Positions 3,817-7,420 of a DNA stretch of 42,345 bases are shown here, in pieces. The stretch is from assembly GCA_022800525.1 (NCBI GenBank), contig JAAWQM010000024.1, positions 1-42,345 of the forward strand, read 5' to 3'. How positions within the stretch are numbered: the stretch's first letter is position 1; every line of letters starts with the position of its first letter. This stretch comes from Oscillospiraceae bacterium. GTDB lineage: Bacteria; Bacillota; Clostridia; Oscillospirales; Oscillospiraceae. Made by a program: the position numbers and the translations under genes. A model generated the notes under the pieces. It was not told the origin of the DNA. It did no database searches and saw nothing but the letters and a program-made list of their open reading frames with translations.

Positions 3817-4395
3817 TCATCCCCTCTGCAGCCCGTCCAGGGTCAGCCCGAACGCCTCTGCAAAATGCTCCAGGAACCAGGACACCTCCTCCATCTCCAT
3901 GGCCCGCAGAGCCTCCAGGGTCTCGGAGGCGGCGTCGCCGAACTCATTGTTGCCCGCCTCCAGCTCCTCCAGGCACTTGATGTAGGCAGACAGCTTGTCC
4001 GCCGCCTTGACGATGCGCTTCACGCTGCCGTCCTCCTCCCGCAGTAGGGGGCTGTAGGCGGGCCGCAGCTCCTCCGGCAGCATGTTCAGCAGCTTTTCCG
4101 TGGCCTCCGTCTCCACCTGGCGGTAGGCGTCCAGGATAGCGGGGGTGTGGTACTTGATGGGGGTGGGCAGGTCGCCGGTGAAGATCTCGGAGGCGTCGTG
4201 GAACAGCGCCGCCTCCGCGCAGGCCGCGGGGTCGCAGGGCTGGCGGAAGACGTCCCGCCGGATTACGCCCAGGGCGTGGGCCAGCACCGCCACCATATGG
4301 CTGTGCTCCTGGACGTTCTCCGGTACGCTGCTGCGCATCAGCGACCAGCGGGTGATGTATTTCATTCTTGAGATGTAGGCGAAAAATTTGTGCAT
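3817..4395 (-). CDS. YfbR-like HD-domain 5'-deoxynucleotidase
   Basis: 192 residues from the ATG at 4395 (AAAGGA site nine bases upstream; a longer frame to 4446 has no ribosome site). Begins MHKFFAYISRMKYITRW, as in YfbR-family proteins. HD signature residues are visible: His in VQEHSHMV and the HD pair in ALFHDASEIFTGDLPTP, with the downstream Asp in KAADKLSAYIKC. This family dephosphorylates deoxyribonucleoside 5'-monophosphates with a divalent metal in the cytoplasm. Family assignment is firm; exact substrate is inferred. Single gene, convergent with the lysA-like gene. Confidence 0.88.
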   Translation of the reverse strand: MHKFFAYISRMKYITRWSLMRSSVPENVQEHSHMVAVLAHALGVIRRDVFRQPCDPAACAEAALFHDASEIFTGDLPTPIKYHTPAILDAYRQVETEATEKLLNMLPEELRPAYSPLLREEDGSVKRIVKAADKLSAYIKCLEELEAGNNEFGDAASETLEALRAMEMEEVSWFLEHFAEAFGLTLDGLQRG

Positions 4396-4468
4396 GGAAG
4401 GCAGTCCTTTCTCTGTGTATGGCATGATGTCGCTGTAAGGCACCATTCGTCTGGTTTGACGGATCCGG

Positions 4469-4497: not shown

Positions 4498-4613
4498 GAG
4501 GTCCCTTGTATAAAGGCCCGCCAGAAGATGAAATCAATTATCTACGGCAAAACCCTTCCCCTTTTTGGCGGAATGTGCTATACTTACTCCATAAATGAGA
4601 GGGGGGTAGAGCC

Positions 4614-5312
4614 ATGTCTTTTACAATCAGCTTCAAAGGTCTGAATGACTTGAAGGTGCTAGACAGCGACGCGTTTCACGCCTTGGATGACGGTGCTGAT
4701 ATCAGGGAGATCACTCAAAAACTGATAAATGACTTGAGCAATGAAGCTGCCGCGGTCTTTGGATATGGCAAGATCACCGTGCGGCAAAAATGGTTGCAAA
4801 TCGAATGGGATTTGACGAGGCCGATTTCCATTTTCTATAACGCAGGGATGTACAGCTCAACCGGCAGGCTGGTGTATAATCCTGTGCTCCTTGCGCAGGT
4901 GGTGAATCGGTTTGGCAAGGATACGCTTCTGGGAATCCTGGGGCACGAGGTTGGACACCGCATGGTCCACCTCCTCTTTATACAGCGAGGTATCCGTATC
5001 AATAATTGGCAGAACGAATACTGTGCAGATTATATTGCCGGTCTGCTCCTCCGGCTGGGCCAATGCTCTCCGCAGGGCATGAATCGTTTTTACCGCGAGG
5101 CCTGTGCTGACGGAGGGCGGGACCATCCGCCCGGAGCCAGCCGTGCCGCCGTTTTTATGCAGGGATATCAGATGATCGACCACGATCGGAAGACGGTTTT
5201 TCTGCGCACCCCGGAGTTTTCAAGGGTGATCGATACCAGACAGATCCTGACAGATGACTTCATGCGGGACAAGCTTTTGAACGATGTGATCAAACGAACG
5301 CAGAGAGTATAG
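4614..5312 (+). CDS. M48-like zinc metallopeptidase, first gene of three-gene cassette
   Basis: 232 residues, ATG at 4614 after GAGGGGGG. The zinc-binding HEVGH is at 111-115, followed by NEYCAD (134-139; Glu135 is the likely third ligand) and a DHPPGASR motif (170-177). HExxH, ExxAD and a HP..xR element in this order are the hallmark of M48-type peptidases. Unlike HtpX or Ste24 there are no membrane spans or signal peptide, so it should act in the cytoplasm. GC content is visibly lower than in the surrounding housekeeping genes and codon use is less biased, suggesting acquisition. It is followed after 13 nt by the 476-residue gene and then by the membrane protein gene, evidently one operon. 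Substrate unknown; one of its partners is an obvious possibility. Confidence 0.8.
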   Translation: MSFTISFKGLNDLKVLDSDAFHALDDGADIREITQKLINDLSNEAAAVFGYGKITVRQKWLQIEWDLTRPISIFYNAGMYSSTGRLVYNPVLLAQVVNRFGKDTLLGILGHEVGHRMVHLLFIQRGIRINNWQNEYCADYIAGLLLRLGQCSPQGMNRFYREACADGGRDHPPGASRAAVFMQGYQMIDHDRKTVFLRTPEFSRVIDTRQILTDDFMRDKLLNDVIKRTQRV

Positions 5313-5325
5313 GGAGAAATTGATA

Positions 5326-6756
5326 ATGGACTATTTTGATGATTTGTTAAATGTCTTCGGCTATCTGCGCAAAATGTCCAGAACTGCTGCCGAAAATCTG
5401 AATACTGCCATTCGCTGGGAAATAAAGGCTGGAGCGCAGTATGACGCGATCAGCGAGCAGCTTGATCACGTCACCCGGATGCTTCGTGAGACGGCCGAGG
5501 CCTGCGGCATCTCTGCTGACGTGGAGAGTCCTCCGGAGGCCGCCCCCGGCGCGGAAGCGGAAAATGTGCTCAAGAAAATTGTTCTTCCAGGCGACATGGA
5601 TTACGAACGGGAATTCCAGGAACTGGTCCGCAAGGCGCGGGAGGCGGGCTTCACTGATGTACATCCTGAGGATTTGCTCACTGCGGAAGAAATGGCTTTT
5701 GCAGAAGAATACAGCCAGGAGCTGGACCTGCAGTTTGCTGCGGCGACGGGTCTCACGCCGCAGGATATGTCTGTTGCGGCAATTGGTATCTGCCTCCATA
5801 TTCTGCGGATTTATCTGCCCAAGGCAAAGGGGCTCTCAGTGGTGGAGAGAATCCATGGTCAAGCGGTGGTTGATGGGCTCGATGGCGCTGCGGGCGGTGG
5901 CTTTAAAACGGCGCAGGACTTGCTCGGGGTTGTGAAGGAGCTTGACGGGATCATTCCGAACAAGAATTACATCCAGATCAAGACCCCCGCTCAAATACTT
6001 GAAGATCCCCCCTCTTTTCAATGCGTTTTCGATGAAAGATATCCGGAAAAGAGCTCCATACTCGGGTACGATCCTTTGTTGGGCTGGCTGTTCGGCGTAT
6101 ATAACATCTTAACAGATACGGTGACCTTCTCCGATATGCGCACGTTTCTCCCGGAACCCATGACGGAAAAGGACTACTTGACGCTGTCCAGGGACTATCT
6201 GCCTCTCCGGGACATCATGGTGCCCTTTGCCATGGAGGGGCTTTCCGGAAAGCGCGATGAGGTCATTGCCGGAGTCATTCGGGAAGCATACGCGCTTATC
6301 CCGGAGGAGATCGATTTTGCAAGCGTGGCGCAGCACTATGAGTACTGCAAAAATCTGACCTCCATGGCTTCTCAGGGGGTGGGAGTGATTGACACGGTCC
6401 GCCCGCTTGAGGGGATCGATCAGATATTCTCCCAAGCCGGCTGGGCCAGTGTGATCAACACGATCCTCATTGCCATACACGGATTGTTTCGCGGCAATGA
6501 GAGGGACATGAAGAAATATATGATCCGATCAATGAAGGTGGTTACCATGGCAAATTTTATTGGCAGCGCAGTTGGAAGCCTTCATGTGTTGGTTGACCAC
6601 AATTATCTGAACGCCGACTGGGGCGGCCTTGCAGCGTCGCTGATTGAGACGGTTCACATGACGCGGTTCTGGGTTGATGTGAAGGCGGAGTTCCTGGTAT
6701 CCGCATATCTGCCTGAATTGCAGAAGCGTTTGAATGAATTGGATCAGTATATTTGA
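5326..6756 (+). CDS. Unknown 476-residue protein, middle gene of three-gene cassette
   Basis: Start chosen at the ATG at 5326 (AGGGAG nine bases upstream) rather than the in-frame TTG at 5320. Not recognised. Residues 1-60 are helical with an amphipathic/coiled-coil look; 65-80 form an acidic Pro/Ala linker; 85-165 are alpha-helical. A striking conserved-looking stretch is GYDPLLGWLFGVYNILTD at about 247-264, then a mostly alpha-helical C-terminal half with hydrophobic helices near 373-388 and 405-423 that could be buried or membrane-associated. Several histidines (for example VDHNYLN near 423, ETVHMTRFW near 441) do not form a motif I can name. Its place between a protease and a glycine-zipper membrane protein suggests a sensor, scaffold or protease substrate; this is inference. 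Confidence 0.75.
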   Translation: MDYFDDLLNVFGYLRKMSRTAAENLNTAIRWEIKAGAQYDAISEQLDHVTRMLRETAEACGISADVESPPEAAPGAEAENVLKKIVLPGDMDYEREFQELVRKAREAGFTDVHPEDLLTAEEMAFAEEYSQELDLQFAAATGLTPQDMSVAAIGICLHILRIYLPKAKGLSVVERIHGQAVVDGLDGAAGGGFKTAQDLLGVVKELDGIIPNKNYIQIKTPAQILEDPPSFQCVFDERYPEKSSILGYDPLLGWLFGVYNILTDTVTFSDMRTFLPEPMTEKDYLTLSRDYLPLRDIMVPFAMEGLSGKRDEVIAGVIREAYALIPEEIDFASVAQHYEYCKNLTSMASQGVGVIDTVRPLEGIDQIFSQAGWASVINTILIAIHGLFRGNERDMKKYMIRSMKVVTMANFIGSAVGSLHVLVDHNYLNADWGGLAASLIETVHMTRFWVDVKAEFLVSAYLPELQKRLNELDQYI

Positions 6757-6796
6757 TATCCAATAAAAACCGGAGAAAAAGGAGAGGAGAATACAT

Positions 6797-7291
6797 ATGG
6801 GCAATGTGAATATCAAACAATTGGAAAAGGAGTCCGCAGAGCTCTTTGCGCTTATTGACTCAGCGAACCGCTCTTTGCAGCTCCCGGCATCTTCGGCAAA
6901 AGAAAGCTTTGAAGCCGGGCTTCAACAGTTTGTTTCCAAGGCTGGGCCCAAGCTTGCTGTGCAGTTCCAGAAAGCAATCAGTTCAGGGCGCATTGAATCG
7001 GCAATTTTGGGGGGTGTGATAGTCGGTACGGCGTATGGGGGCGCGGTTGCTTATGATGCGGTTAGAAATGCACTGGCTCATAACAAAGCGAAAAACGCCC
7101 TGTTGGGCTATTACCAGGAGCTGACAGTCAAACAAAACCTGATCATCAGCGAGCTTTATGAGAACACTAAGAAATACGCCGAACTTGCGGCCATACATTC
7201 CGCAGAAGCCAGTCGGCTTAAAAAGCGTTGTGATGAATTGGAGAGCCTTGCACAAAAAATTATTCAATTTCAGAAGAAGATCCAAGGTTAA
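6797..7291 (+). CDS. Glycine-zipper membrane protein with C-terminal coiled coil, third gene of cassette
   Basis: 164 residues, ATG at 6797 after GGAGAGG. Layout: a helical amphipathic N-terminus (1-62), one hydrophobic segment (about 66-88) containing a GxxxGxxxG glycine zipper (Gly73, Gly77, Gly81) plus a flanking GG, and a long heptad-like C-terminal helix (about 100-163) rich in Lys, Glu and Leu. No signal peptide. Glycine zippers pack membrane helices closely and are common in channels and pore-forming peptides, so an oligomeric membrane protein is plausible; the coiled coil may drive assembly. It is 40 nt after the middle gene and is followed by a terminator, closing the operon. Function unknown. 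Confidence 0.78.
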   Translation: MGNVNIKQLEKESAELFALIDSANRSLQLPASSAKESFEAGLQQFVSKAGPKLAVQFQKAISSGRIESAILGGVIVGTAYGGAVAYDAVRNALAHNKAKNALLGYYQELTVKQNLIISELYENTKKYAELAAIHSAEASRLKKRCDELESLAQKIIQFQKKIQG

Positions 7292-7314: not shown

Positions 7315-7344
7315 CGGGCGGACCTATACGCGTCCGCCCGTCTT
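7315..7344 (+). terminator. Terminator closing the three-gene cassette
   Basis: Nine-bp stem cgggcggac (7315-7323) with gtccgcccg (7332-7340), loop of 8, followed by tctt. It lies 24 nt after the membrane protein gene. Confidence 0.7.
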
Positions 7345-7420
7345 GCGGTTATAGCCCAATTTCTTAAGAAATCCCCGACGCAACCGCAAATTTACATCCA
7401 ATCCACCCAAACGCAACCGC
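7343..7420. promoter_or_regulatory. ACGCAACCGC direct repeats upstream of the XRE regulator
   Basis: The 10-mer acgcaaccgc occurs at 7378-7387 and 7411-7420, a 33-nt period (about three helix turns on the same face). An inverted ttgcggtt lies at 7343-7350. They precede the XRE-family gene at 7486 and could be its operators. I see no clear promoter hexamers in this 194-nt gap. Confidence 0.35.

Follow-up and report, generated by a model that had tools for sequence, protein, structure and literature searches.

A candidate Bunzi-related three-gene cassette with a predicted M48-like peptidase in an Oscillospiraceae bacterium

Bunzi, an anti-phage system of bacteria consisting of the proteins BnzA and BnzB, was reportedly first described by Millman et al. 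in 2022. Here we characterise a cassette of three genes with a predicted relation to this system in the contig JAAWQM010000024.1 of an Oscillospiraceae bacterium (assembly GCA_022800525.1; 42,345 nucleotides, the whole of which we call the window). Gene 1 is predicted to encode an M48-like zinc metallopeptidase, gene 2 a divergent BnzB-like protein and gene 3 a short protein with a glycine zipper (Table 1). We read the cassette as a horizontally acquired, membrane-acting, Bunzi-related defence module, in which gene 2 would be the core, gene 3 the effector and gene 1 a peptidase in a variable slot, and we give this reading a probability of roughly one half.

Bunzi is placed among the systems of unknown mechanism (PMC12926258), TerB is tabulated as a Bunzi domain (PMC10952713), and BnzA and BnzB are recorded in one strain (PMC11206119). 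As a precedent for gene 1, a gene for an M48-family peptidase lies within a phage-protective island of Escherichia coli, for which the excerpt reports protection by the island and does not attribute it to the M48 gene alone; its partners, unlike those of gene 1, belong to restriction and toxin-antitoxin systems, and a BnzB-like gene goes unmentioned in that excerpt (PMC12255303). Likewise, extensions of CoCoNuT systems (type III-A) contain a bacteriocin-like glycine-zipper protein in a defence-type locus, but its neighbour is a SpoVK-type ATPase, and the accessible part of the article mentions no BnzB-like gene (PMC11090510). A type of regulator that accompanies some of the BnzB-like genes, WYL, is linked to defence systems in the title of PMC4012209. 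Among the open-licence papers listed in searches, judged by titles and the beginnings of abstracts, none describes the wider BnzB-like family, its group of loci with a WYL regulator, partner and core, or the variant with a peptidase.

Compared with Bunzi, gene 2 shares the signature of BnzB and is apparently related to it, and gene 3 weakly resembles the glycine-rich membrane part of BnzA. The cassette differs in its additional peptidase gene and in the alignment of gene 2 to the BnzB profile of PADLOC, which is very short. Pfam TerB is uninformative as a test for BnzA, because a plasmid-encoded BnzA has itself no Pfam TerB match at an E-value of 0.05.

The BnzB-like gene

The preliminary description of the cassette, made from the letters of the window, had left gene 2 unrecognised. 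This held for Pfam, NCBIfam and PHROGs, which returned nothing useful, but not for PADLOC, whose BnzB profile matched gene 2 with an E-value of 8.1e-5, covering only 25 residues of 504 profile positions. The family relation was demonstrated with a profile built from 76 relatives, excluding both gene 2 and its counterpart in the Oscillospiraceae genome RGIG7255 (locus L061). This profile matched residues 96-477 of the 478-amino-acid open reading frame (ORF) of gene 2 with an E-value of 1.5e-41, a value that reflects the coherence of the family and is no independent discovery, because the relatives were gathered with gene 2 as confirming query. The match includes the signature of the BnzB-like family, GHDPxLGWIFGTxNIxTxTxT. 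In a search set of 55 sequences, the profile also matched canonical BnzB (E-value 1.9e-8), and no other ORF of the window scored below 0.1. Judged by its sequence, gene 2 belongs, as a divergent member, to a large family with a relation to BnzB, which is the second Bunzi protein. It has one hydrophobic window (1.66, at residue 405), a feature absent from the preliminary description.

The closest relative found is the L061 counterpart, with 29 % identity across the full length. In a quick, unfinished tree the two grouped together as a separate deep branch (99 %), both being long-branched; four loci were left out of this tree, as were cores outside 300-560 amino acids or below 100 bits. The BnzB-like proteins in the tree come mostly from Bacillota, and also from Bacteroidota, Spirochaetota and Lentisphaerota.

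Gene 2 had no match in any of the 24 other genomes of the genus (67-98 % complete), in 35 further relatives or in 314 of 320 genomes of the family. With tblastn, 6 of 72,556 plasmid records were found to contain relatives (E-values 3e-11 to 6e-11), and the BnzB profile matched in 16 of 293 genomes of the class, the window's own counted. As a lone query against genome contigs, and as a query against phages, gene 2 gave nothing useful, and neither did the L061 protein against plasmids or the protein P0004 against phages. When genome contigs were scanned with an alignment of ten sequences, 146 relatives emerged, of which 80, confirmed by similarity to gene 2, were kept. Matches of gene 2 to a 5'-3' exonuclease and to a rubrerythrin were below threshold and were rejected.

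The glycine-zipper gene and its probable counterparts beside BnzB-like genes

Gene 3 had been described as carrying a glycine zipper, one hydrophobic segment and a coiled coil, and the analysis agreed. GxxxGxxxG lies at residues 73-81 inside a single modest hydrophobic segment (maximum 1.42), and the C-terminal half is charged and coiled-coil-looking. A membrane span is plausible, though weak by hydropathy. To compare gene 3 with the neighbours of other BnzB-like genes, we used a profile of 41 adjacent partners, none of them from the window or L061. This profile matched residues 74-157 of gene 3 with 23.9 bits (E-value 2.6e-6), and the next ORF of the window had an E-value of 2. None of 1000 three-segment, composition-keeping shuffles of gene 3 reached 23.9 bits (best 14.5), and the C-terminal half alone scored 16.7 bits. 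With a broad partner profile, the neighbour in L061 scored an E-value of 0.0055 and BnzA one of 4.1e-7 over residues 296-484, where the alignment accuracy was low (0.57) and the match lay mainly in the glycine-rich part. We consider gene 3 a probable member of a family of short glycine-rich coiled-coil partners, a relation that is supported but not settled. Gene 3 gave nothing useful in plasmids or viral contigs, and PDB sequence searches gave no useful match. HAUS2 and TrpE-like assignments of gene 3 were dismissed, both being sub-threshold matches.

In the survey, 54 of 96 BnzB-like cores (95 loci) had a partner encoded directly beside them on the same strand, and for 22 cores a WYL regulator was encoded no more than four ORFs away; for the loci of named genomes only, the figures were 47/80 and 15/80. 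The adjacency counts lean upward, because the partner profiles were built from BnzB-adjacent genes chosen for hydrophobicity, and the loci are not independent cases, as some are near-duplicates (e.g. L123/L034, L136/L035, L085/L057, L177/L087, L178/L078 and L180/L107). The ORFs were delimited by a simple longest-first script rather than a gene finder, and a 72-amino-acid BnzB-like fragment of L059 is not among the 96 cores.

The arrangement of the neighbours varied. In six loci (L028, L029, L035, L049, L057 and L059) a protein of 146-187 amino acids is encoded immediately 5' of the BnzB-like gene, with a short N-terminal part, a hydrophobic part rich in glycine and alanine, and a coiled-coil-looking end. 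Others (e.g. L071, L087, L098 and L111) show the order WYL regulator, glycine-rich partner, BnzB-like gene. These resemble the cassette in that a small glycine-rich membrane protein adjoins a BnzB-like protein, but their partner is upstream of the core whereas gene 3 is downstream, they have a WYL regulator that the cassette lacks, and they have no peptidase. A Lactococcus plasmid carries a row of WYL regulator, short coiled-coil-looking gene, gene-2 relative, BnzA and BnzB, in which PADLOC recognised BnzA (5.1e-128) and BnzB (2.7e-150) and scored the gene-2 relative as BnzB-like (1e-17). In L061, the nearest gene-2 relative has a neighbour resembling gene 3 and a phage-type integrase gene upstream; unlike in the cassette, a 204-amino-acid gene of unrecognised kind occupies the slot of the peptidase. 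Altogether, genes 2 and 3 seem to recur as a pair.

The third genes of the loci differ and include a dynamin (L003), proteins with a GMxAGAxPFE-like N-terminus, coiled-coil-looking proteins and, in L086, a gene with a DUF533-like match below its cut-off. The GMxAGAxPFEEKF-like N-terminus beside BnzB-like genes is followed by differing remainders, a dynamin in L003 and a beta-helix in L096. Such genes are found at L096:9089-10879, L103:6760-8532, L110:9213-11102, L117:8666-10429, L124:8744-10921 and L134:3428-5662; those of L110, L117, L124 and L134 had no Pfam match at an E-value of 0.01. They look like a set of swappable effectors or sensors. Separately, three ORFs of 541-793 amino acids (L032:8838-11171, L033:1785-4166 and L036:1607-3232), which matched canonical BnzB in phmmer with E-values of 1.7e-17, 3.3e-17 and 5.1e-5, have one to five hydrophobic segments and GxxxGxxxG, as if they were fusions of partner and core.

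The peptidase gene and its place in the cassette

In gene 1, HEVGH spans residues 111-115 and EYCAD residues 135-139; ExxAD occurs once more at 162-166, and HP lies at 171. The motifs HExxH, ExxAD and HPxxxxR thus occur in this order (the last at 171-177), which is the arrangement of M48 peptidases. No 19-residue window exceeds 1.2 on the Kyte-Doolittle scale, i.e. there is no hydrophobic span, and both features are as initially described. The Pfam model M48 (PF01435) matched gene 1 with an E-value of 0.0079 and 16.5 bits, below the gathering cut-off of 20.3. The sole match of a PDB sequence search had an E-value of 0.75 and was a transcription regulator. By its motifs, gene 1 is a predicted soluble M48-like zinc metallopeptidase.

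We found no relative of gene 1 in plasmids, phages or viral contigs. Among 250 genomes of the family there was no close relative, with six matches outside the own genome at an E-value of 0.01, and among 291 genomes of the class only the window's own passed 0.001; each sample contains the own genome, and further overlap between them is possible. The six family matches were rejected; of the four examined (L051-L054), one is a different, longer protein with HExxH (L052) and three are apparently unrelated (by eye, two transporter-type ORFs and one regulator-like ORF). L055, another of the six, has four internal stops. The ORF L052:619-2196 of a genome from the same family encodes 525 amino acids with HEIAH, EYQAD and HPHFEDR and bears a distant metallopeptidase resemblance to gene 1.

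The strict M48 pattern was found in none of the 80 named-genome loci. HExxH occurred in 12 of 1594 ORFs from 102 loci, and one of the 12 also fits a loose M48 pattern; this ORF, annotated as PepO in L004, lies 2.7 kb away on the opposite strand. HExxH was also absent from the ORFs of seven additional loci, which include near-duplicates. The preliminary description had proposed a membrane-acting immune module whose effector is a glycine-zipper protein, with the three genes expected to be neighbours in other genomes as well. The first part is sensible, because the families of gene 2 and probably gene 3 recur side by side and include Bunzi components. The order of three genes is not conserved; among the loci fetched, the pair of genes 2 and 3 recurs, but gene 1 is not a neighbour elsewhere.

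It is possible, though on the whole rather unlikely, that genes 2 and 3 form a complete two-gene module and that gene 1 is a separate passenger of the same insertion. A partner directly beside the BnzB-like gene is the commonest arrangement in the named-genome loci, and the nearest relative, L061, has no M48-signature gene. But gene 1 lies just upstream of gene 2 on the same strand, within the same insertion and with a similarly low GC content at third codon positions (GC3), and L061 also has an extra gene directly 5' of the pair, as if the first slot were variable. As gene 1 shares insertion, strand and composition with the pair and ends 13 nt upstream of it, it is probably co-transcribed with genes 2 and 3. 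The main doubt is whether it belongs to the system; so far it has been seen with the pair in this window only.

Several results weigh against the defence module that we favour. No M48-signature gene adjoins another BnzB-like gene among the loci fetched, and gene 1 may therefore be unrelated cargo. BnzA was not found in genes 1-3 by PADLOC at E-values up to 10, and because of this the cassette is not canonical Bunzi. The strongest profile match of gene 2 is not independent of gene 2 itself. Profile-profile comparison with six partners gave gene 3 a probability of 7 % (the L061 neighbour 0.4 %), and the direct match of gene 3 to the L061 partner (24 bits, E-value 6e-4) has a score that 1 of 200 shuffles attains. 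Finally, ORFs near to and far from BnzB-like genes matched 185 and 131 PADLOC families, respectively, at an E-value of 1e-10, with defence genes in both sets, which without a genomic background says nothing on enrichment in defence islands; this comparison covered 110 ORFs out of 256 near ones and 110 out of 196 far ones, from which genes labelled as parts of a system and ORFs below 150 or above 1000 amino acids had been excluded.

Insertion site and proposed function

The ORFs are at the places initially described, packed with gaps of 13 nt (genes 1 and 2) and 40 nt (genes 2 and 3). The GC content of genes 1, 2 and 3 is 0.52, 0.53 and 0.48 vs 0.59-0.64 in six flanking genes, and their GC3 is 0.62, 0.63 and 0.51 vs 0.79-0.88. 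For gene 2, the mechanical ORF list gives an alternative TTG start at 5320, which results in 478 amino acids. The terminator that had been described as closing the cassette was recovered in part, as a hairpin of 9 bp whose T tract is poor, and a consensus terminator scan listed nothing at its position.

Table 1. Positions of the cassette genes and associated features in the window
Feature	Coordinates	Strand	Description
Gene 1	4614..5312	+	232 aa, predicted soluble M48-like zinc metallopeptidase (HEVGH, EYCAD, DHPPGASR); motifs, sub-cut-off Pfam M48
Gene 2	5326..6756	+	476 aa from ATG, predicted divergent BnzB-like protein; signature YDPLLGWLFGVYNILTDTVT
Gene 3	6797..7291	+	164 aa, glycine-zipper segment and coiled coil; probable membrane partner
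Hairpin, 9 bp	7315..7340	+	3' of gene 3; possible weak terminator; spotted by eye
Inserted segment	4418..7368		Left edge uncertain; from same-genus loci and flank alignments

Comparison with same-genus loci demonstrates that the cassette was inserted, as a segment of about 2.8-3.0 kb. The neighbouring nucleotidase gene is present in 21 of 25 genomes of the genus, the window's own counted, and in 7 of the 20 other same-genus loci (L143-L148 and L153) it is followed by the XRE gene; six of these have 0.18-0.55 kb between the two genes, and L146 has about 1.1 kb. The remaining 13 loci are uninformative on the XRE gene, as at most 1.5 kb of flank was fetched and some contigs were shorter. Genes 1-3 had no tblastn match in the fetched flanks of any of the 20. 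Since relatives have the XRE gene beside the nucleotidase gene without the cassette, it is an old neighbour and stands outside the cassette. Clear homology to the same-genus loci ends at 4390-4417 on the left and restarts at 7369-7380 on the right. The size is given as a range, because L144 shows a weak match of 23 bases at 4562-4582 (E-value 0.011), which makes a left edge near 4583 possible. In L146, about 1.1 kb of unrelated AT-rich DNA lies between the XRE and nucleotidase genes in the same intergenic spot; the spot is thus variable and may be an insertion hotspot. At the left edge of the window, a reverse-strand run of ORFs (55-1937) has a phage-derived look by eye, with zinc-ribbon and helix-turn-helix proteins; it is separate from the cassette and not contiguous with it.

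These data also bear on an envelope-stress or housekeeping membrane complex, which would fit the M48 peptidases HtpX, BepA and OMA1, known for their role in membrane quality control. We regard such a role as highly improbable, given the lack of a gene 2 match in the 24 other genus genomes and in most of the family genomes covered, the differing composition of the inserted segment and the patchy distribution.

The surroundings of the relatives raise the question whether the module instead serves competition between mobile elements (superinfection exclusion, plasmid or prophage maintenance, or addiction of a toxin-antitoxin-like kind) and not host defence. Relatives are found on plasmids and near phage-type integrase or resolvase genes, L061 among them; Pfam recognised two members of each among 110 neighbours. 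By eye, recombinase genes stand beside the cores of L057 and L028, and the L059 core lies in a phage packaging region. We still judge this explanation improbable, as no integrase-type ORF was seen by eye in the ORF list of the inserted segment, and the relatives in PADLOC are defence components.

Returning to the Bunzi-related defence module, we infer its defence function, its action at the membrane and every step assigned to the peptidase. The BnzB-like core would probably act as sensor or scaffold, and the small membrane partner would likely be an effector that damages or depolarises the membrane as the infected cell is sacrificed. Gene 1 would be a cytosolic peptidase in the slot filled elsewhere by BnzA, dynamin-like or other proteins, and its cleavage of the partner, the core or a phage protein would most likely license the response. 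A pair with changing third genes, found on plasmids, near integrase or recombinase genes, in a phage-like region and with WYL regulators, fits an abortive-infection module, and the presence of a protease gene ahead of that for a membrane effector hints at cleavage as the trigger. A more far-reaching version, which is speculative and in our view doubtful, is that modular immune systems acting at the membrane form a large and apparently undescribed family, of which the cassette represents a branch armed with a peptidase. In this branch the core would restrain the glycine-zipper protein, and the M48-like protease in the variable slot would sense infection, cut the complex and open a pore.

If this were true, the peptidase branch would offer a bacterial parallel to pore formation triggered by a protease, with the protease and the pore both unrelated. 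A protease variant that works would connect proteolysis with a membrane effector. For the family as a whole, the analysis suggests that the BnzB component of Bunzi is part of a wider family whose third gene is exchangeable and which, in 47 of 80 loci, has a small glycine-rich neighbour, and it indicates this membrane partner as a recurring effector.

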